Source: Pseudomonas paralcaligenes (GTDB lineage Bacteria; Pseudomonadota; Gammaproteobacteria; Pseudomonadales; Pseudomonadaceae). Taken from it: a stretch of 64,000 bases of DNA. A program made the translations under genes and the position numbers. Shown here in pieces: positions 31,353 to 53,879 of this stretch. The stretch is from the NCBI RefSeq assembly GCF_019655855.1, contig NZ_BPFX01000014.1:62001-126000 (forward strand), in the 5' to 3' direction. Numbering within the stretch: position 1 is the stretch's first letter; the number at the start of each line of letters is the position of its first letter. The notes under the pieces were generated by a model that ran no database searches, was not told the origin of the DNA, and was given only the letters and a program-made list of their open reading frames with translations.

Positions 31353-31374
31353 TCTTTTTGGCTAGCGAAAAATC
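31353..31374 (-). promoter_or_regulatory. Late-promoter-like motif before tape measure gene (copy 1)
   Basis: The 22-bp motif reads TCTTTTTGGC then TAGCGAAAAATC on the plus strand and is identical to the copy at 38799-38820. T-run and A-run flank a GCTAGC centre, a dyad suited to a dimeric activator. It overlaps the stop codon of the methyltransferase gene and lies just upstream of the tape measure gene, where Mu has its third late promoter. Confidence 0.65.
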
Positions 31375-32242
31375 AGTAAGTGGGCGCGCCCCGGTCCGCA
31401 GATATCAACTTGTGGGCGATCCACTCCGCGACTTGCGTAACGACGGCGTTTCCTGCAGCGAAAGCCTCTGCAAGGTTGGCCTCATCCAGCCCGAGGCAAA
31501 GCCCATCATCCGCAGCCTCTCGCTGCCGCTCAACCATCTGATCCCATGCGTCCGGGTGAGCGACGAAAGTGGTGCAGCCCATAGTGATCTGTGATCCGGC
31601 TTTATTCGCCAGGAGAGTATTGGCAGCCCAGGCATCCGCTGCGCATGGCCAGGCGATCTTGCTAGACGCTGGAGGTATTGCGTCCACTGGCGCGGCGTCA
31701 CCCAGCAGCTCCATGGGGGGCATTCGTCGATAACCTGCGACCAGGAAAATCCGGCGACGCTGCTGGGGGACTCCGAAATACTGAGCATTAAGCACTCGCC
31801 AGCATCCCACATACCCGCAGTCCGCAAGGGCCCGGATGACGATCTCAAAGTCTTCGCAATCGTTGACAGAGAGCAGGTTAACGACATTCTCAAGCACCAC
31901 CCACCGGGGTTGAATTTCCTTGATGATTCGTATGACTTCCCAGAAAAGGCTGCTTCGTTCGCCGCGGAGCCCGCGCTTATCCTTGTTGCCGTACCGGGCA
32001 CCGGCGAGACTGATGTCCTGGCAGGGAAAGCCTCCTGTGACGACATCGACTCGGGCCAGGTTGTGCTGGCCGCATTGGCGGACATCTTCAAGTTGGGTTG
32101 CGTGAGGAAATCTATCGGCAAGGACAGCCCGGTTGACCGGATTGAGTTCAACTTGCCAGGTGGTACGGAAACCGGCGTTTTCAAAGCCGACATCAAAGCC
32201 TCCAATGCCTGCGAACAGGCTGCCAATCGTTAGCTGTTGCAT
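31373..32242 (-). CDS. DNA (cytosine-5-)-methyltransferase
   Basis: A 289-aa C5 methyltransferase with all core motifs in order: I (FAGIGGFDVGFENAGF), IV (GGFPCQDIS with catalytic Cys), VI (VVLENV), VIII (PQQRRRIFLVAGYR) and X (AAGNAVVTQVAEWI). The target recognition region is short. It makes 5-methylcytosine in phage DNA; the recognition sequence cannot be deduced. Its ATG overlaps the end of the com-like gene by 13 bp, an arrangement parallel to com-mom of Mu. No restriction enzyme partner is near, so it is an anti-restriction or self-marking gene. Confidence 0.92.
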   Translation of the reverse strand: MQQLTIGSLFAGIGGFDVGFENAGFRTTWQVELNPVNRAVLADRFPHATQLEDVRQCGQHNLARVDVVTGGFPCQDISLAGARYGNKDKRGLRGERSSLFWEVIRIIKEIQPRWVVLENVVNLLSVNDCEDFEIVIRALADCGYVGCWRVLNAQYFGVPQQRRRIFLVAGYRRMPPMELLGDAAPVDAIPPASSKIAWPCAADAWAANTLLANKAGSQITMGCTTFVAHPDAWDQMVERQREAADDGLCLGLDEANLAEAFAAGNAVVTQVAEWIAHKLISADRGAPTY

Positions 32243-34250: not shown

Positions 34251-34433
34251 TCAGTTCGCGGCCGGCTTGTCGCCAGCGATGATCTTGTTCGCGATCAACC
34301 ATGCCTTGTCGGCGATGTTGACCTCGATCTCGTCCTTCTCCTGGTACTCACGCCCTGCATGGGTATGCGGCTTCAAGAGGGTGACTTTTTCGAGCTTCTG
34401 CTCTTCGGCCTTGGCCGGGGTCTTGATGCTCAT
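34251..34433 (-). CDS. Short protein at the head-tail junction (gp38-like position)
   Basis: A 60-aa protein (MSIKTPAKAEEQKLEKVTLL) starting at ATG 34431-34433, overlapping the previous stop by ATGA. Its position just after the gp37-like gene is that of Mu gp38. The sequence resembles small DUF7210-type phage proteins with a Thr-His-Ala-Gly-x-Glu segment (KPHTHAGREYQEKDEI). Role unknown. Confidence 0.65.
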   Translation of the reverse strand: MSIKTPAKAEEQKLEKVTLLKPHTHAGREYQEKDEIEVNIADKAWLIANKIIAGDKPAAN

Positions 34434-34879
34434 TGGGTTCTCCCGATGGCGTGTTGGGTTTGATAGATGTCGGCCCACACAAGGACGTTGGTGTCGTAGT
34501 CGATCACTTTGCCCTGGACGAGCTGGCAGTCGCGGGACATCGCCAGGGGCGGTCTCCAGCCGATCAGCGCATTGCGTACAAGCGGCAGCAGGGCCTTCAG
34601 GTCGTCGGCGGCAGCGGCTCCGCGGTTGTCCCGGTAGTTGGTCACAGCCAGCGTCACGCCGAAATGCACCGCCGCGACCTGCCGTCGCCCGGCGCCGGCA
34701 TTGCCCTGATCGCGCGGTTCGGCGGTTTCCTGGGCGAGCACGACGAACACCTGCGGCGGCCGGAAGTCGCGCAGCGCCGTGACCGCTGCCAGATCCGCGG
34801 CGGTGCCCAGGGTGAAGGTCCTGGGCAGCTCCGCGCGTAGCCGCTCGATGACGAGCTGGTGATCGAACGGCGCGCTCAT
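34430..34879 (-). CDS. Mu gp37-like protein (DUF1834)
   Basis: A 149-aa protein (MSAPFDHQLVIERLRAELPR). The pattern of an N-terminal helix, FRPPQVFVVLAQETAEPRD in the middle and a hydrophobic-rich end (NALIGWRPPLAMSRDCQLVQ) matches DUF1834/gp37 of Mu-like prophages, a head-tail completion or tail-terminator-like protein. Overlaps DUF1320 gene upstream and the 60-aa gene downstream. Confidence 0.75.
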   Translation of the reverse strand: MSAPFDHQLVIERLRAELPRTFTLGTAADLAAVTALRDFRPPQVFVVLAQETAEPRDQGNAGAGRRQVAAVHFGVTLAVTNYRDNRGAAAADDLKALLPLVRNALIGWRPPLAMSRDCQLVQGKVIDYDTNVLVWADIYQTQHAIGRTQ

Positions 34880-35388
34880 CCAAAATCCTTCAGGGTGTGC
34901 CGGTCGAACACCCGGGGCGGCGCGGAGAATTCCGGCGTACCGCCGCTGACCGGCGCGATAGGGTCGTCCGGCCCGAGGCTGAATTTGCCATCCGCAACCA
35001 GCTGCAGAAACTTCAGGGCGTCGCGGTAATCGCGGAGGATCGGGTCGGTTGCCTCGGCGGAAAGCCGGTCCTTGTGGATCAGGTACCGGGCAATCGCCCT
35101 GGCCCAGGCCGTGACAATGCTGAAGCGAGTAGCCAGCGGCAGCGGGTAGCCGCGCCGGCGCAGATATCCGTCGATGATCGCCTGGGCGTCATTGATCGCC
35201 GAGACGATCACGTCCAGCGTCTCGGTGCCGATCTGCACCTCCTCGGCCGGCCAACTGCCCACCGGCTCGCCGCGCAGCAGCGCATCGAGCAGGTCCGGCG
35301 CAACGGATGGGTAGCGCAGCGGAGTCGCCGCCTGCGCGAGTTCCGTAGCACCAGGACGGTCGGCCAGCTCGGGGAGGGTCACGTACAT
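34876..35388 (-). CDS. Mu gp36-like protein (DUF1320)
   Basis: A 170-aa helical protein. MYVTLPELADRPGATELAQA, then INDAQAIIDGYLRRRGYPLP, is the DUF1320/gp36 signature, a head-tail connector adaptor of Mu-like phages. The ATG at 35386-35388 lies 2 bp after the acb2 stop; a TTG start that would overlap is less likely. Overlaps the gp37-like gene by 4 bp. Confidence 0.85.
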   Translation of the reverse strand: MYVTLPELADRPGATELAQAATPLRYPSVAPDLLDALLRGEPVGSWPAEEVQIGTETLDVIVSAINDAQAIIDGYLRRRGYPLPLATRFSIVTAWARAIARYLIHKDRLSAEATDPILRDYRDALKFLQLVADGKFSLGPDDPIAPVSGGTPEFSAPPRVFDRHTLKDFG

Positions 35389-35390
35389 GC

Positions 35391-35720
35391 TCAGCAACCC
35401 TCCGGCTGCGCTACCGCGCGCACCAGGGCCATGATGCCGGTCTGAATGTCGGTCTTGCCCAGGGAGGCCCAGCGCTGCGGCTCAGCGGCCAGGAAACGGC
35501 GAAGCTCCACGCACTCGGCGGTGGCCTCATCCTGCGGCGAGCGCTTGGATGCTACGGCTGCTGCTTGCTTCACCTCCAGGTCGGTCCCGAGACGCCCTGC
35601 GAGTTCCGCCTGCAGGGCCAGTAGCTCGGCCCCCTTGGCCTTGATGCGGTTCATCAGGTCGACCTCGGCCTGACTCAGCTCGCGGTATCCCTTGATCTTG
35701 CGGTGCTGGTTTTCCATCAC
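35391..35720 (-). CDS. acb2: Acb2 anti-CBASS cyclic-nucleotide sponge
   Basis: A 109-aa protein beginning MENQHRKIKGYRELSQAEVD and ending LGKTDIQTGIMALVRAVAQP, the two-helix pattern of the Acb2/Tad1 hairpin family (Vs.4 in T4). Acb2 was described from Pseudomonas transposable phages such as PaMx33 as a sponge binding 3',3'-cGAMP and related messengers, blocking CBASS. Tyr11 and Lys26, reported as needed for ligand binding, are at the same positions here. A linker of about 30 residues between the helices (GTDLEVKQAAAVASKRSPQD) may be longer than usual. The ATG overlaps the preceding stop (ATGA) within the structural operon, so it would be made late. Confidence 0.82.
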   Translation of the reverse strand: MMENQHRKIKGYRELSQAEVDLMNRIKAKGAELLALQAELAGRLGTDLEVKQAAAVASKRSPQDEATAECVELRRFLAAEPQRWASLGKTDIQTGIMALVRAVAQPEGC

Positions 35721-36196: not shown

Positions 36197-37126
36197 TCAA
36201 GCCGCTACGGCGTTCTCGAAGAAGAAGCCGAGGTCCGGCGCGCAGATCACTTCCCGGACGGACTCGCCGACGCGGACGCGCTGGCCACCACGCATGCCGA
36301 TGTCCTTGTCCTCGATCGAGCCGGAGATTCTGCTACCCCACTGAGCGGTGAAGCCGAAGGTGGTGCCGCCGCTGGCATCGGCCAGGCGGTCGCGGTACAG
36401 GAAGGACGCATGCGGCCCCCAGGCGCGGACCAGGTTCGGGTTCTGGCCCGGGCGGGCGATGTTCAGGCGGGCCTCGCCGACGTAGATCGCCTCCAGCTCC
36501 AGCAGGTCCTGCAGGAAGCCCATCGGCACCATGCCTTCGTCGCCGGCCGTGCCGTTGTACGCCTTCACGACCTTCGGATGGCGGCGCAGGTTGGTGGCAG
36601 TGCGGCGACCGAGAACACTGATGTTCGGACGCATGACCATCGAATCCAGGGCGTCGGTGATAGCAACGACCGGATCGCTGTCGGGATGGCTCCACTGGCT
36701 GGTACCGGACAAGGTGGTCTTGTTGCCAGCTGCATAGCTGCTGTTGTTGAAGACGGCCGACGACACCCGGGCTTCACGATCGAGCAGGATCAGATCGAGG
36801 GTCCGCTCGGCCGCATGACCGATAGGGTCATAGTTGGCCGGGGCGTTGTCGATGTCCGCCTGCGGCACCGGCGCATCCAGGCCGTGGTCATGGGTGCTCG
36901 AGGTCTGCTCGGTCGCGCTGAACTCCACCTGGTTCACTCGGCCCTTACGGCCGACCAGGGTTTCCGGCACGGTGAAGCCTTCGGCCAGGTTGTACAGCCA
37001 CCACTTGAACTCCTGTTTGCCGACCGGCACGCGCGGCAGCACATCGTCAGCGATCAGGCGGCCGTTGCGGTAGGCGATGGCGATCGCCGTCAGGTGCGGA
37101 TCAATGGGAAACGGGGCGTTGCTCAT
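36197..37126 (-). CDS. Major capsid protein
   Basis: A 309-aa HK97-fold-type capsid protein. MSNAPFPIDPHLTAIAIAYR at the N-terminus, the P-domain-like helix with DALDSMVMRPNISVLGRRTA, and RISGSIEDKDIGMRGGQRVR near the end match capsid proteins of B3-type phages. No N-terminal delta domain is seen, consistent with the separate scaffold/protease gene upstream. A decoration-like gene lies 15 bp upstream. Confidence 0.85.
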   Translation of the reverse strand: MSNAPFPIDPHLTAIAIAYRNGRLIADDVLPRVPVGKQEFKWWLYNLAEGFTVPETLVGRKGRVNQVEFSATEQTSSTHDHGLDAPVPQADIDNAPANYDPIGHAAERTLDLILLDREARVSSAVFNNSSYAAGNKTTLSGTSQWSHPDSDPVVAITDALDSMVMRPNISVLGRRTATNLRRHPKVVKAYNGTAGDEGMVPMGFLQDLLELEAIYVGEARLNIARPGQNPNLVRAWGPHASFLYRDRLADASGGTTFGFTAQWGSRISGSIEDKDIGMRGGQRVRVGESVREVICAPDLGFFFENAVAA

Positions 37127-37141: not shown

Positions 37142-37516
37142 TCAGGCCGTCAGGACGGCCGGCGCAATGAAGGTGGAACCGATATCGCCGACCACGCCAG
37201 CGACTTCGGCGTAACCGATGATGTAGGTGGTGCCCGCCACCGGCAGAGTGACCGCGACGGCGCGGCCCTGGCTGTCGGCAGTCAGCGGCGCACCGCGGGT
37301 GACGGTGCCGCCGTACTCGACCGGAGCCAGGCCGGCGCGGATCAAATCAACGGGCTGTCCGTTGGCGGCGGGAATGTCGGTGCTGACACCGATCAGCAGG
37401 GCAGTGGCGGCGGCGGCCTGGACGGCCAGGCCGTCCGACGCGCCATGCACCGCGAGGCGGCGAGCGGCGATCGCGCCGCCGGCGAGCTTGGTGGTAGTGA
37501 GGCCGGGAATGTTCAC
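37142..37516 (-). CDS. Capsid decoration-like protein
   Basis: A 124-aa Ala/Gly/Val-rich beta protein (MNIPGLTTTKLAGGAIAARR) between the protease/scaffold and the major capsid genes. The sequence (AVQAAAATALLIGVSTDIPA; TYIIGYAEVAGVVGDIGSTF) resembles DUF2190-type decoration proteins that stabilise capsids. Inferred mainly from location and composition. Confidence 0.65.
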   Translation of the reverse strand: MNIPGLTTTKLAGGAIAARRLAVHGASDGLAVQAAAATALLIGVSTDIPAANGQPVDLIRAGLAPVEYGGTVTRGAPLTADSQGRAVAVTLPVAGTTYIIGYAEVAGVVGDIGSTFIAPAVLTA

Positions 37517-37519
37517 GGG

Positions 37520-37981
37520 TCATGCTCCCTTGGTGACATGCCGCACCGCGGCACGGGTGGAAACGGTGTTGCCGAGTTTCGCTTGCTCGGCCTGGTAGGC
37601 CCGGGCAGCGTCGGCAACGGCCTGAGCATCGTCGACGTCCAGGTCACGGCCGCGGCCGGCGCTCTTCTCGGCGAAGTCGACCTGCGCGGGCAGAGCGCTG
37701 AGCAGCTCGCGCAGCACGTCCTCGCCCGGCTTGCTCACCTGCTGGTCGCCCTCGGCGAACTCCAGCGGCGCGGCCGGCAGGTTGAGCATCAGCTCCACCA
37801 CCGGCTGTTTCTGGCGCGGCAGCAGCTTGCCGGCAGCGACCAGGCCCTCGGCGAACTCGGCTACCTCGCGGCGTTTCTCGTCAGCCGCCTGCGCAGCGTG
37901 CTGCGCCTCGCTGGCGGCCACCTTCTGCTCGCGCTCGGCGAGCTGGCGTTCGCGCTCGTCGAGCGCAGCCTTGTCGGTCAT
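37520..37981 (-). CDS. Nested scaffold protein (internal start, Mu gpZ-like)
   Basis: ATG at 37979-37981, in frame within the protease gene, preceded at about 10 bases by CAGGA. The product would be 153 aa, MTDKAALDERERQLAEREQK onward, containing only the coiled-coil scaffold part. In Mu the scaffold gpZ is made from an internal start of gene I. The ribosome site is modest, so this is inference from family organisation. Confidence 0.5.
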   Translation of the reverse strand: MTDKAALDERERQLAEREQKVAASEAQHAAQAADEKRREVAEFAEGLVAAGKLLPRQKQPVVELMLNLPAAPLEFAEGDQQVSKPGEDVLRELLSALPAQVDFAEKSAGRGRDLDVDDAQAVADAARAYQAEQAKLGNTVSTRAAVRHVTKGA

Positions 37982-38767
37982 GTTGGGTTCCTGCTGTTGG
38001 GAGTCGGAGGGGGTTGCAGCGGCATCCGCCGCCGCTGCAGCCGTGCCGCCATCATTCTCGATGGCAGCCTGATCGGGCTCGGCCGGCGAGGCGGCGGATG
38101 CCTCGACGGGTTCAGCGCCCTGCTCATGGGTGGGTTGTTCGGAGAAGGAGATCATCGGCCGGCCCCGATCGGCCTCGCGCCGGGCGCTCTCATCGATTGA
38201 GAGGATCTGCCACATCGGAATCAGCTGCTCGGCACGCTCGGCGCCCTCGCGCTCGATGAAGAAGTCGCGCACGCGGCGCAGGATGTCGAGCACGCCGGTG
38301 ACGGCATACGGCGGTTCGGCGAACTCGACCACCGCGGAGCCGTCGCTCTCGGCGAAGCTGACCGCGGCATCGGGGATGCCCTTGATGGCCGGCGGCATGG
38401 CGCCCAGGAAGCCGATGTGGCGCAGGTAGTGCTTGCCCGGGGTCGGGTTGCCGGGAGAGTCCGGCAGGTACACCGAGGCCGACCGCTTCTTGTACATCTT
38501 GCGGTTGGCCGCCTCGGCGAACTCCGGCACCACCTGGTGCGGTTCGGCGAACAGCATGCCGTCGCGCACTTCCAGGCCCTTGGCCCAGCCGTAGGCCGGT
38601 GCATTGAGCTTGGGGTGACCGATGACGAGCGGGGCCTCATGCAGGGTCGGATCGTAGGTCTCGACGATCTCTCGCAGGATGGCCTCGGTGAACTCCACCG
38701 GGCGGCCGTCGAGGGCGACGTGCTGGCCGGCGGGAAGGATGGGCAGAGTGGCGGTCGGTGTGTTCAT
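37520..38767 (-). CDS. Head maturation protease fused to scaffold (Mu gpI-like)
   Basis: A 415-aa protein. The first 200 residues form the protease domain (APLVIGHPKLNAPAYGWAKG, then KKRSASVYLPDSPGNPTPGK), as in Mu gpI. The rest is an Ala/Glu/Gln-rich coiled coil (DERERQLAEREQKVAASEAQ) typical of scaffolds. Start ATG 38765-38767, 32 bp after the late motif at 38799-38820. An internal in-frame start (see 37520-37981) would make free scaffold, as with Mu gpI/gpZ. Confidence 0.85.
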   Translation of the reverse strand: MNTPTATLPILPAGQHVALDGRPVEFTEAILREIVETYDPTLHEAPLVIGHPKLNAPAYGWAKGLEVRDGMLFAEPHQVVPEFAEAANRKMYKKRSASVYLPDSPGNPTPGKHYLRHIGFLGAMPPAIKGIPDAAVSFAESDGSAVVEFAEPPYAVTGVLDILRRVRDFFIEREGAERAEQLIPMWQILSIDESARREADRGRPMISFSEQPTHEQGAEPVEASAASPAEPDQAAIENDGGTAAAAADAAATPSDSQQQEPNMTDKAALDERERQLAEREQKVAASEAQHAAQAADEKRREVAEFAEGLVAAGKLLPRQKQPVVELMLNLPAAPLEFAEGDQQVSKPGEDVLRELLSALPAQVDFAEKSAGRGRDLDVDDAQAVADAARAYQAEQAKLGNTVSTRAAVRHVTKGA

Positions 38768-49715: not shown

Positions 49716-49834
49716 AACCCACTCCGCTCATGAAAGACGGAGAACAGATTGGCCGACGGGTAATGGCGCTGCCAACGGTGAGAACCGGAATTTGTTTGGA
49801 CGCCACGCCGCAAGACCAACAGGAGCCACATCCA

Positions 49835-50323
49835 ATGACACGCCGCAATTGGAAACACTGGGTACCGCGCTCGCCAGCCGAAGCGATGGACGGCTGCGCA
49901 CAGCTCGCCCTGGAGCGGCGCAACCGCAGCATCGAGCGGCTGGCCTGCGACCACCTCGGCCAGAACAACGCGAGCACGCTTTACAAGTGGATGGGCAATG
50001 GCCGCCTGCCCTTGAGCCTGATCCTGCCGCTGGAGCATGCCTGTGGCCAGCCGTTGATCACCCGATACCTGGCCGCTGCCCACGGCCTGATGCTGGTGGC
50101 TGTCCCTTCCGGCCGCAAGGCCACTCCCTCTGACGTGCAGCAGCTGCAGCGCCTGCTCAACGACGCGGTCGGCGCCGTGCTGGCCTTCACCGACGGGCAG
50201 CACTCGGTACCCGAAACCCTGGACGCGATCCGCGCCGGCCTGGAGTCGCTGGCCTGGCACCACGGCAACGTCCAGCAGCACGACCGCCCACAACTCGACT
50301 TCGGAGGTCCTGACGATGAGTAA
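49835..50323 (+). CDS. Early regulator-like protein, CII-type position
   Basis: A 162-aa protein starting MTRRNWKHWVPRSPAEAMDG behind AGGAG. The N-terminal helix pattern (CAQLALERRNRSIERLACDH; NNASTLYKWMGNGRLPLSLI) reads as a HTH, consistent with a phage DNA-binding regulator. The C-terminal part has VQQLQRLLNDAVGAVLAFTD. The open frame to 49730 upstream overlaps the leftward gene and is not used. Ends overlapping the next gene by 8 bp. Confidence 0.65.
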   Translation: MTRRNWKHWVPRSPAEAMDGCAQLALERRNRSIERLACDHLGQNNASTLYKWMGNGRLPLSLILPLEHACGQPLITRYLAAAHGLMLVAVPSGRKATPSDVQQLQRLLNDAVGAVLAFTDGQHSVPETLDAIRAGLESLAWHHGNVQQHDRPQLDFGGPDDE

Positions 50324-50537
50324 GGCTCAGCAACTTGTTACCCAGCGCTTCGACTACGGCGTTCCGCGTAGCGCTGAATACCAGGCCGGATGCCTGTACA
50401 TCTTGCAGCGCAAGCTGGAGGACGGCGAAGCCATCTTCTGCCCATACGGAATTCCGAGTGCCCAGGCAGACGCCTGGTTCGCCGGGTGCGATGAAGGTCA
50501 CCGCATGTTCGCTGCCTATCTGGAGGCGCACGCATGA
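50316..50537 (+). CDS. Small early protein, unknown
   Basis: A 73-aa protein (MSKAQQLVTQRFDYGVPRSA; DEGHRMFAAYLEAHA) overlapping the previous gene by 8 bp and the next by 4 bp. Compact, Tyr/Cys-containing; no family recognised. Early-expressed small proteins of this kind are candidates for host-takeover or anti-defence roles. Confidence 0.6.
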   Translation: MSKAQQLVTQRFDYGVPRSAEYQAGCLYILQRKLEDGEAIFCPYGIPSAQADAWFAGCDEGHRMFAAYLEAHA

Positions 50538-50839
50538 CCATCAAACGCACCCATGACAGCGTCCGCCGCGCCCTGCGGCTGATGAAGGCCCTGCGCGGGC
50601 ATGCCCTGCGCGGCCTCTCCAACGCCGAGCTTGCGAAGGCGCTGGGCGAGAGCCCCGTCAACGTCACCCGCTACGTGGACACCCTGGTAGAGGAAGGCTG
50701 GGCCACGCGCCTGGAAGACGGCCGCATCACGCCGGGCATCGCCTTCCTGCAGTTCGCGATGGCCACCACCGAAGAACTCGACCGGGCAGGCGCACGCCTG
50801 ACCGAGATGCGCGCCCGCATCAGCACCAACCACCACTAG
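50534..50839 (+). CDS. Winged-helix (IclR/MarR-like) early regulator
   Basis: A 101-aa protein with a winged-helix core: SVRRALRLMKALRGHALRGL, SNAELAKALGESPVNVTRYV (recognition helix) and DTLVEEGWATRLEDGRITPG (wing). Start ATGA-overlaps the previous gene. It probably binds DNA to tune early transcription. The short C-terminal helix has no ligand domain. Confidence 0.7.
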   Translation: MTIKRTHDSVRRALRLMKALRGHALRGLSNAELAKALGESPVNVTRYVDTLVEEGWATRLEDGRITPGIAFLQFAMATTEELDRAGARLTEMRARISTNHH

Positions 50840-50848
50840 GAGCAACCG

Positions 50849-51127
50849 ATGGACTACCTGAAGTTGAGCAAAAAGCTGCTCGAACATGAGCCCGCACACA
50901 GCATCCCCTTCATCGAAGGCATGGCGGCCATCCTGCACAACCGCGTTGATCGCACCCCGGTGACCAGCCCCTATGCCGCCGGCACCGCGGAGGACGATGC
51001 CTTCTTCGCAGGCCGCATGCGCGCCCACAACGAGTTCCGCAACCTGCTGGAGGAGTGCAACGGGGATCACGACGCCGCCGTCGACCGTCTGCGTGCCCTT
51101 GCCGGTACTGCTCAGGAGGTGGCGTGA
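50849..51127 (+). CDS. Early protein, unknown
   Basis: A 92-aa protein (MDYLKLSKKLLEHEPAHSIP; NEFRNLLEECNGDHDAAVDR) ending on the next gene's start (TGATG). Mostly helical, no recognised motif. Lies between a winged-helix regulator and the DUF3102 protein. Confidence 0.6.
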   Translation: MDYLKLSKKLLEHEPAHSIPFIEGMAAILHNRVDRTPVTSPYAAGTAEDDAFFAGRMRAHNEFRNLLEECNGDHDAAVDRLRALAGTAQEVA

Positions 51128-52101
51128 TGGCTCGCAAGGAAAAGTCGGATGAGCAACTGGCTGAGATGCTCCAACGCGGCCGCAAGCCATCCGCGCCGGC
51201 GGCGCTGGTGGAAGATGTGCCGCTGGACGCCGGAGCGCTGATCAGCACGCAGAACCAGCTGGCGACGCTGGCCACCGAGCAGGACGTTCAGGTGCGTGCC
51301 GTGGCCGAGCAGCTCGGCTACCAGCTGCCGGCCGACAGCACCAACCCCGACCTGATCCAGCGCGATATCGCCGCAAATATGCGGCGCAGCGTGGAGGCCT
51401 GCCTGGAGGTGGGACGTGGCCTACAGGTGTTGAAGGTCGCCTGTGGACACGGACAGTTTCTGCCGCGGCTAGATGTCTTGGGTATCGATGTGAATGTCGC
51501 CGGACGCTTCATGAAATCCGCTGCCAAGTTCGCCTCGCTCGGCAGCAATGCCGCCTTGACCAAGGCCATCGGCAACCAGTCGAAGCTGTTCGAAATGCTC
51601 GTCCTGGACGACGAAGAGATCCAGGAGCTGGAACTCACCGGCCAGACCGGCGAGCTGACCCTTGACGACGTCGCCACCATGTCGGTGAAGGAGCTGCGCA
51701 AGGCACTGCGCGCCGCCCGCGAGACCGTCAGTGCCAAGGAACGGGTGATGGCAGACATCACCGCCAAGAACAACCAGCTGGCCACCGAGCTGGCCAGGAA
51801 GCCCAAGGTCATCGTGGTGCAGCCAGTCGAGGAGGCCAGGCAGTTGCGCCAGGAGGTGGTGGCCACCGCCTACGAGGTGGAAGGCACCCTGCAGGGCACC
51901 CTGCGCAAGGCCTTCGCCGATCTGGAGCAATTGGCCCGCCAGACCGGCGAGGATCACCGCAGCTTCACCGCCGCCCTGGTGCGCAACCTGGAGGTGACGC
52001 TGATGGCCATCCGCAGTGAGTTCCACCTGCCCGAACTGCACCCGGATCAGCTGCCCGGCTGGCAGAACCTGCTCGGCCTCGATGACCTGGCCGAGGGCTG
52101 A
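51127..52101 (+). CDS. DUF3102 family protein (phage DNA-associated)
   Basis: A 324-aa protein. Near residues 75-130 the sequence ACLEVGRGLQVLKVACGHGQ, then FLPRLDVLGIDVNVAGRFMK matches DUF3102, a helical domain next to HTH-like parts found in phages and conjugative elements. A coiled coil follows (KELRKALRAARETVSAKERV). It directly precedes the transposase gene, separated by 2 bp. It may organise DNA or regulate transposition. Confidence 0.78.
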   Translation: MARKEKSDEQLAEMLQRGRKPSAPAALVEDVPLDAGALISTQNQLATLATEQDVQVRAVAEQLGYQLPADSTNPDLIQRDIAANMRRSVEACLEVGRGLQVLKVACGHGQFLPRLDVLGIDVNVAGRFMKSAAKFASLGSNAALTKAIGNQSKLFEMLVLDDEEIQELELTGQTGELTLDDVATMSVKELRKALRAARETVSAKERVMADITAKNNQLATELARKPKVIVVQPVEEARQLRQEVVATAYEVEGTLQGTLRKAFADLEQLARQTGEDHRSFTAALVRNLEVTLMAIRSEFHLPELHPDQLPGWQNLLGLDDLAEG

Positions 52102-52103
52102 CC

Positions 52104-53879
52104 GTGAACCCCATCCATGCCCAGGAGATTCTGGCGGCCTACGGCCAGGCCCAGCAGCCCGGCGCCAACCGCACCGCGCTGTACGCGGCTACGGCAGCAC
52201 GACTGGGCATGTCGCTGGCCACCCTGTACCGCAAACTGGAGGTACTGACCGTGAAGGACAAACCGCGCAAGCAGCGCCGTGATGCCGGCAATACCAGCAT
52301 CGCACTGCGCGAGCTGCAGCTGCTTTCGGCCCTGCTGGTTGAGAGTATCCGCAAGAACGACAAGCAGTTGTCATCCATCAAGCTGGCCGTGGCGCGTCTG
52401 CGCGCCAACGGCCTGATCCGCGCCGAGTCGGTGAACAAGAACACTGGCGAGTGCAAGCCGATGAGCGAGAGCGCCATCAGCCGCGCGCTGTACCAGCACA
52501 ACCTGCACCCCTCGCAGTTGCTGGCACCGGCGCCAGCCGTCCCGCTGTCGAGCAAGCACCCGAACCACGTCTGGCAGATCGACGCCTCGATCTCCACCCA
52601 GTTCTACCTCGACGACGACGGCGCCCGCACCATGAACCCGGCCGAGTACTACGACGGCAAGCCGGCCAACCTGAAGAAGATCGAGCGTAAGCGCCTGTGG
52701 CGCTACGTGATCACCGACCACACCAGCGGCACCATCTATGTGCAGTATGTGCTCGGCGCCGAGAGCGCGGAGAACCTCTGCCATGTGCTGATCTGCGCCA
52801 TGCAGAAGCGCGGCGAGAGCGACCCGTTCCACGGCGTTCCCTTCACCATCATGACCGACCCCGGCGCGGCCATGACCTCGGCCATGTTCCGCAACCTGTG
52901 CCAGGCCCTGGGCATCGAGCTGATCATCAACGAAGTGGGCAACGCCCGCGCCAAGGGCCAGGTCGAGCAGGCGCACAACATCGTCGAGTGCGATTTCGAG
53001 TCCGGCCTGAAGCTGGAGAAGGCCGAGACCCTGGCGCACATCAACGCCCGCGTCGGCGAGTGGATGCGCGCCTTCAATGCCACCGCCATCCACACTCGCC
53101 ACCGCCGCACGCGCTACGGCGTGTGGATGCTGATCAAGCCCGAGCAACTGCGCATCGCACCGCCGGCCGAGGTATGCCGGGAGATGGCCACCTGCGCGCC
53201 GGAGCTGCGCAAGGTCAACACCATGCTGCAGGTTTCCTACCGTGGCGCGCTGTACGAGGTCAGCAGCGTGCCGGGCGTGATGGTCAATGAAAAGCTGCTG
53301 ATCACCCGCAACCCCTGGCGCGACGCGGAAAGTGCCCAGGCCGTGCTGCGCGATGAGAACGGCCACCAGACCCTGTACGTGATCGAGCGTCTGGATCGCA
53401 ACGAGTTCGGCTTCGTCGAAGGCTCCGCGGTGATCGGCGAGCAGCACAAGAGCCACGCCGAAACCCCGGCCCAGGTGGCGCGCAAGGTGCTGGAGCAGCT
53501 GGCCACCGAAACCGACAGCGAGGAAGCCGCGGAGCAGGCACGCAAGGCCAAGGCGGTGCCGTTCGGCGGCGCCATCGACCCGCACAAGCACCTCACCGAT
53601 ACCAGCCTGCCGGCCTACCTGCCCAAGCGCGGCACCGAGCTGGAAACCCGCGTCACCCTGGCCGGCCTGGCCTCGGTGGAGCTGCAGCCGCTCAACCGCA
53701 TCGAGCTGGCCAAGGCGCTGCGCGCTCGCCTCGGCAGTGCCTGGACGCCCGAGTCCATGGAATGGCTCAAGGCCAACTACCCGGACGGCGCCATGGAGGA
53801 GCAGCTCGACACCGTCGTGCAGCAGCTGCAGGCACCTTCAGCACGCCCAGGCCTGCGCCTGGTAGGCGGCGGCGAATGA
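52104..53879 (+). CDS. Transposase A (Mu-type DDE recombinase)
   Basis: A 591-aa transposase starting at GTG 52104. N-terminal HTH-like segments (RLGMSLATLYRKLEVLTVKD) precede the catalytic domain. Its acidic residues are in HVWQIDASISTQFYL (Asp near 159), IMTDPGAAMTSAMFR (Asp near 251) and RAKGQVEQAHNIVE (Glu near 288), a DDE triad. The C-terminal domain continues as a beta-barrel and tail. It cuts and joins phage ends, giving replicative transposition. ATGA overlap with gene B. Confidence 0.93.
   Translation: MNPIHAQEILAAYGQAQQPGANRTALYAATAARLGMSLATLYRKLEVLTVKDKPRKQRRDAGNTSIALRELQLLSALLVESIRKNDKQLSSIKLAVARLRANGLIRAESVNKNTGECKPMSESAISRALYQHNLHPSQLLAPAPAVPLSSKHPNHVWQIDASISTQFYLDDDGARTMNPAEYYDGKPANLKKIERKRLWRYVITDHTSGTIYVQYVLGAESAENLCHVLICAMQKRGESDPFHGVPFTIMTDPGAAMTSAMFRNLCQALGIELIINEVGNARAKGQVEQAHNIVECDFESGLKLEKAETLAHINARVGEWMRAFNATAIHTRHRRTRYGVWMLIKPEQLRIAPPAEVCREMATCAPELRKVNTMLQVSYRGALYEVSSVPGVMVNEKLLITRNPWRDAESAQAVLRDENGHQTLYVIERLDRNEFGFVEGSAVIGEQHKSHAETPAQVARKVLEQLATETDSEEAAEQARKAKAVPFGGAIDPHKHLTDTSLPAYLPKRGTELETRVTLAGLASVELQPLNRIELAKALRARLGSAWTPESMEWLKANYPDGAMEEQLDTVVQQLQAPSARPGLRLVGGGE

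Follow-up and report, generated by a model that had tools for sequence, protein, structure and literature searches.

A late-operon acb2 gene in a B3-like prophage probably encodes a sponge for CBASS cyclic nucleotides

We found an acb2 gene in a B3-like (Mu-like) prophage within the window, that is, the whole 64,000-nucleotide stretch of DNA analysed here. Its product is very probably (roughly 93%) a protein built of one helix plus a two-helix hairpin, which would act as a hexameric sponge for CBASS cyclic di- and trinucleotides and be expressed from the late operon. The gene belongs to the Acb2 family, retains the family's contact residues, is under purifying selection at both ends, lies in the structural operon and occupies a slot in which its presence is optional. 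By analogy with its relatives, the product would most likely fold as a short N-terminal helix followed by the two-helix hairpin, its protomers would assemble into a hexamer, and this hexamer would sequester, without degrading them, the cyclic di- and trinucleotide products of CBASS cyclases, with CBASS effectors staying off while the phage completes its lytic cycle. As in those relatives, Acb2 would probably be made after induction or infection, from the late operon and coupled to the translation of the upstream gene. With this gene, a prophage in a host with type II CBASS gains a clear candidate for an anti-CBASS protein; otherwise the finding confirms known biology, and its interest is low because an equally long relative occupying this slot in phage JBD67 has already been studied.

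The acb2 gene and its family membership

The acb2 ORF is real and runs on the minus strand (Table 1) from an ATG at 35717, encoding 108 aa, with the stop codon included in its span. An extra GTG directly before this ATG accounts for the listed ORF end at 35720 and for a 109-aa form; the 108-aa product from the ATG is the likelier protein, and a Shine-Dalgarno-like GAGGGAG is found just 5' of the ATG. At the junction with the upstream gene, GAGGGAGCGAGTGATGG, the upstream TGA overlaps the acb2 ATG (TGATG), which suggests translational coupling of acb2 to the upstream ORF, while only two bases separate the acb2 stop from the ATG of the downstream gp36 homologue. The copy looks intact.

The original prediction had called the protein Acb2-type and had pointed to its start, its end and the residues Tyr11 and Lys26, all of which held up. 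The profile search matched PF24729, the Pfam Acb2/Tad1 hairpin, along its entire length (positions 1-58 of 58), scoring 66 bits where 27 is the cut-off (E 3.6e-18). Using phmmer, near full-length homology was detected to the solved Acb2 of phage PaP2 (p26; PDB 8h2j, E 3.1e-22, residues 2-107 of the 109-aa form) as well as to a second solved PaP2 Acb2 chain (PDB 8ixz, E 1.3e-21). In the protein search, 1718 of the 1770 candidate proteins were relatives at E ≤ 1e-3, and the best 120 of these were listed. The protein start MENQHRKIKGYR and end KTDIQTGIMALVRAVAQP agree with Acb2. Numbered from the ATG, residue 11 is Tyr and residue 26 is Lys, which we take to be the cGAMP-pocket residues of Acb2; both were present in 214 of the 221 distinct sequences, some of the seven exceptions looking mis-trimmed by our script, and in a 76-row alignment Tyr11 was invariant and Lys26 at least 90% conserved. 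Arg82, likewise at least 90% conserved, aligns with PaP2 Arg67, presumably a cyclic-trinucleotide contact.

The conserved ends are under purifying selection when compared with JBD67 acb2, showing dN 0.145 and dS 1.10 for residues 1-42 and dN 0.081 and dS 0.895 for residues 71-108 (simple Nei-Gojobori counts by segment, in which several dS values were saturated). No further Pfam domain was found at E ≤ 1 in the 109-aa form, whose hairpin match starts at residue 11. Neither NCBIfam nor PADLOC returned a family for the prophage protein; these blanks were not counted against Acb2 because the models in PADLOC-DB are described as being for defence systems.

Of the solved proteins, PaP2 Acb2 shares with the prophage protein the conserved ends, Tyr11, Lys26 and the RW and KTDIQTG motifs, whereas the identity is ~44-48%. 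T4 Acb2 (Vs.4, 7uq2) is very distant: a 72-row profile reached it weakly (E 0.0064), neither of the matching stretches being significant alone. On this weak profile alignment, in which the T4 residue mapping assumes a one-residue offset of PDB chain 7uq2, the Tyr, Lys and Thr positions line up, with T4 Tyr8 on Tyr11 and T4 Thr68 on Thr89, whereas T4 Phe82 falls on Ala103. In passages of PMC12657218 and PMC12657230, the T4 variants Y8A, F82C and T68M are said to impair Acb2, Y8A and T68M in nucleotide binding, and the impairment by Y8A (PMC12657218, in part) backs a role of the tyrosine in nucleotide binding. The gene is an ordinary member of the already-known Acb2 family, and this annotation is sound.

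The inter-helix linker

The prophage Acb2 has 108 aa and PaP2 Acb2 93 aa, with the 15-aa surplus located in the linker (residues 43-70, limits chosen by us). An extended linker had been predicted, together with a possible change of bound ligand or oligomer state. The first part stands relative to PaP2 Acb2; the idea of a special extension found no support, as the length is the commonest one sampled, equals that of JBD67 and varies within the slot. The spacing between the GYR and PxRW motifs was 70 in the prophage Acb2, in JBD67 and in 122 of the 189 measurable sequences, the remaining 32 of 221 distinct sequences being unmeasurable. This sample comprised the 120 best-listed proteins and the acb2 ORFs of 128 loci, and it leans to the protein's own kind, since most of these loci were retrieved with the prophage Acb2 as the query (in the viral scan, the best 80 of 224). 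The linker was rejected as a special feature on the basis of this spacing; it is extended relative to the solved structure and ordinary within its group.

Several other lengths occur in the same slot, namely 95, 100, 102, 104 and 108 aa in contigs anchored on gp36, and 117 aa in loci L007 and L050. Linker dN reached at least 0.49 in 13 of the 15 pairs among six genes; the linker is not uniformly fast, however, because dN was just 0.19 between the prophage acb2 and JBD67 and 0.17 between L050 and L007. This sequence comparison of linker lengths and dN gave no sign of altered ligand or assembly. An Acb2 whose ligand range or assembly has been shifted by the linker, for instance adapted to what one particular cyclase makes, would fit the strong variation in linker length and sequence between same-slot alleles with conserved ends. 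We consider it quite improbable, given that the contact positions checked fall in these conserved ends, that the linker has the ordinary length shared with JBD67, and that a loop at a hairpin tip is expected to vary even where ligand choice is not under selection. A wider proposal starts from the acb2 alleles in the one optional capsid-side slot of B3-like phages, which keep their ends while the linker changes in length and sequence; that the linker would be a diversifying module tuning the captured nucleotides or the assembly is speculative and seems unlikely. The slot alleles (acb2 absent, or present with several linker lengths) provide a natural series for asking what role the linker plays.

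The late operon and the acb2 slot

The predicted location in the capsid operon was confirmed: head maturation protease, cement, major capsid, upstream ORF, acb2, Mu gp36 homologue and tail terminator follow one another, all on the minus strand (Table 1). Portal, tape measure and transposase genes are also present in the prophage, and its head genes are similar to B3 head genes (77.6% identity in three pieces that cover 37% of a 20-kb query). The upstream ORF has a variable front and a last stretch of ~45 residues that is conserved with or without acb2 beside it.

Table 1 Features of the acb2 region and of the host CBASS operon (window positions unless stated otherwise)
Feature	Position	Strand	Evidence and remarks
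Head maturation protease	37520..38767	-	phrog_976 E 6.7e-115
Phage cement / head scaffolding-type protein	37142..37516	-	PF09956 just over cut-off; phrog_673
Major capsid protein	36197..37126	-	phrog_1005 major head protein E 9.6e-107
Upstream ORF, 142 aa	35717..36145	-	PHROG matches to C-terminal part; homologues adjoin slot
acb2, Acb2/Tad1 hairpin domain protein, 108 aa	35391..35717	-	PF24729 66 bits; PDB 8h2j E 3.1e-22; 77-78% identity to JBD67-group phages
Codons of inter-helix linker, residues 43-70	35508..35591	-	Segment codon comparison, linker lengths; length and sequence variable among relatives
Mu gp36-type head-tail adaptor	34876..35388	-	PF07030 E 5.5e-25; phrog_195
Tail terminator protein	34430..34879	-	PF23840 E 5.8e-43
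Type II CBASS operon	own assembly C14:140219-144903 (L130:14219-18903)		Same contig as acb2, ~43 kb away

Elsewhere in the window, a DNA methyltransferase gene (31373-32242, late strand; phrog_116, E 6e-66) adjoins the tape measure gene, and genes for a CII-like regulator and for a Mu-type transposase (49730-53879, plus strand) are divergent from the minus-strand late operon. A 172-aa database protein (P0028) contains, in a single reading frame, an upstream-ORF relative together with acb2 and is possibly a frameshift fusion.

The closest annotated phage relatives of the prophage Acb2 are JBD67 (AFR52294.1) and its kin; these and other Beetrevirus Acb2 proteins also have 108 aa and the same linker length. 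The slot arrangement is the same in JBD67 and AV002, and in JBD67 acb2 is likewise flanked by a short ORF on the capsid side and by the gp36 homologue, whereas 22-23% of the Acb2 residues differ and the upstream ORF is annotated as 195 bp in JBD67 compared with 142 aa here. Huiting et al. 2023 tested a JBD67 ∆acb2 phage, according to a passage of PMC13083879; the same passage, again citing that study, states that Acb2 induction rescues JBD67 ∆acb2 and JBD18 only partly. The rescue speaks for the sponge reading, its incompleteness against it. Paper searches on Acb2, with most subscription journals and preprint servers outside their coverage, found none on this prophage.

To describe the slot across phages, records were collected by capsid protein and by gp36. 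The capsid protein is at least 79% identical in 26 phage records (some of them GenBank/RefSeq pairs), of which 22 bear acb2; B3 and JBD18, with two records apiece, make up the other four. In these two Beetrevirus phages (one record each inspected), the slot lacks acb2 and the upstream ORF runs straight into gp36. Among the gp36-anchored viral contigs (36 found, 2 dropped for too little upstream sequence), acb2 stood directly before gp36 in 20 of 34 and was absent in 14, although several contigs were identical or near-identical and do not represent independent events; half of the 14 had the same kind of upstream ORF up to gp36, and the other 7 were more diverged. In addition, 128 loci were examined for a gp36 neighbour, B3 being the one without an acb2 match. 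A gp36 homologue adjoined acb2 in 8 of the 127 others, i.e., L001 (the window itself), L002, L004, L007, L016, L050, L052 and L122, and none was detected by profiles in the remaining 119, where short flanks are frequent and diverged homologues would escape detection. The slot is an optional cargo position holding several acb2 alleles.

The tight packing between the capsid genes and gp36, next to an upstream gene with no assigned function, would also suit a repurposed relative serving in head-tail assembly or as a structural accessory, with no sponge function. We judge this very improbable: the ends are conserved with dN low relative to dS, the contact residues are conserved as well, and acb2 is dispensable for assembly in those relatives, because the 14 contigs (half of which have the same upstream ORF), B3 and JBD18 have no acb2 at the slot. 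A Tad1-type protein chiefly sequestering Thoeris gcADPR is equally hard to credit, for although a single Pfam family covers the hairpins of Acb2 and Tad1, the prophage protein begins directly at the Acb2 N-terminus, its 108 aa leave no room for the extra N-terminal beta-sheet that part of PMC12043709 describes in Tad1 and that is absent here, and the PDB matches naming the family are Acb2 chains (p26 and Vs.4).

Timing of expression

From the position of the gene, protection had been proposed to be timed to capsid synthesis. This was borne out in part: the late structural operon is indeed its location here, but this is not general: PaP2 acb2 has genes for DNA polymerase, primase and MazG close by instead of capsid genes, and VP882 acb2 adjoins a methyltransferase and a tail gene. 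The late position was therefore rejected as a family-wide rule; late placement is a trait of the B3-like lineage, because these family members sit elsewhere. Between 33400 and 39600, no sigma-70-like site was found on the acb2 strand and one was found on the other strand, with 0.5 expected by chance; the lack of such a site on the acb2 strand agrees with transcription from the late operon but is no proof of it. Terminator-like hairpins numbered 8 on both strands of the stretch searched against 3.0 expected. Two weak ones lie upstream of acb2 on the same strand (36239-36227 and 35905-35893) and, if real, would reduce read-through into acb2, which weighs slightly against unhindered transcription through to the gene, again without proof. 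A review describes Acb2 as active in induction and not in lysogeny maintenance (PMC12043709, in part). According to a passage of PMC10419184, phages without acb2 escaped CBASS via a missense mutation affecting the major capsid protein; this renders the position of acb2 beside capsid genes suggestive, without showing a link.

Host CBASS and co-occurrence with acb2

The prophage's own assembly contains one acb2 (the same search matched 0 of 14 control genomes) and one SMODS cyclase (3 of 14 controls matched, 2 of them over the cut-off). A type II CBASS operon of four genes (HNH-SAVED effector, cyclase, E1-E2 and JAB) is located outside the window. The nearest matches are SmCdnG (8hsb, E 2e-52) for its cyclase and, for its effector, 8fm1, which we take to be P. 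syringae Cap5, and 9dif; the resident system thus looks like a CdnG/Cap5-like CBASS. PMC8568899 names 3',2'-cGAMP as the messenger of the CdnG-Cap5 systems studied, and part of PMC13253105 reports its use by PsCap5. The prophage Acb2 may or may not silence the host's own CBASS: a review reports that Acb2 binds 3',2'-cGAMP (PMC12043709, in part), yet Acb2 alone failed in T4 to overcome one CdnG system (PMC11722364, in part). With such a CdnG/Cap5-like system resident, that failure counts against the sponge reading. The prophage Acb2 and the host type II CdnG/Cap5-type CBASS form a natural pair for asking whether a late-operon sponge blocks the cyclase of its own host. Panoptes was rejected as a counter-selecting host system, as mCpol had no match at E ≤ 1e-3 in the own assembly (1 of 14 controls matched, none over the cut-off).

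We also compared 398 same-genus genomes, drawn evenly from a larger group. At E ≤ 1e-3, acb2 matched in 28 and SMODS in 41 (25 and 35 over the cut-off), the SMODS profile not necessarily capturing every CBASS cyclase. SMODS was present in 2 of the 25 genomes with acb2 (the own genome and G055) versus 33 of the 373 without (Fisher p = 1.0; 0.71 minus the own genome). The pairing of acb2 and SMODS in the genus is no more than chance, which counts against the sponge reading; the idea that host CBASS specially explains acb2 was accordingly rejected as support.

Next to the CBASS operon lie a homologue of PD-Lambda-4_B (L130:12689-13585, E 4e-79) and an exonuclease listed by PADLOC as an effector (L130:13674-14222, E 2.7e-89), which suggests a defence island. 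In three same-genus genomes (G015, G126 and G229), the acb2 match contains a single in-frame TAG, which recalls the premature stop reported for PaMx41 in a passage of PMC12657218.
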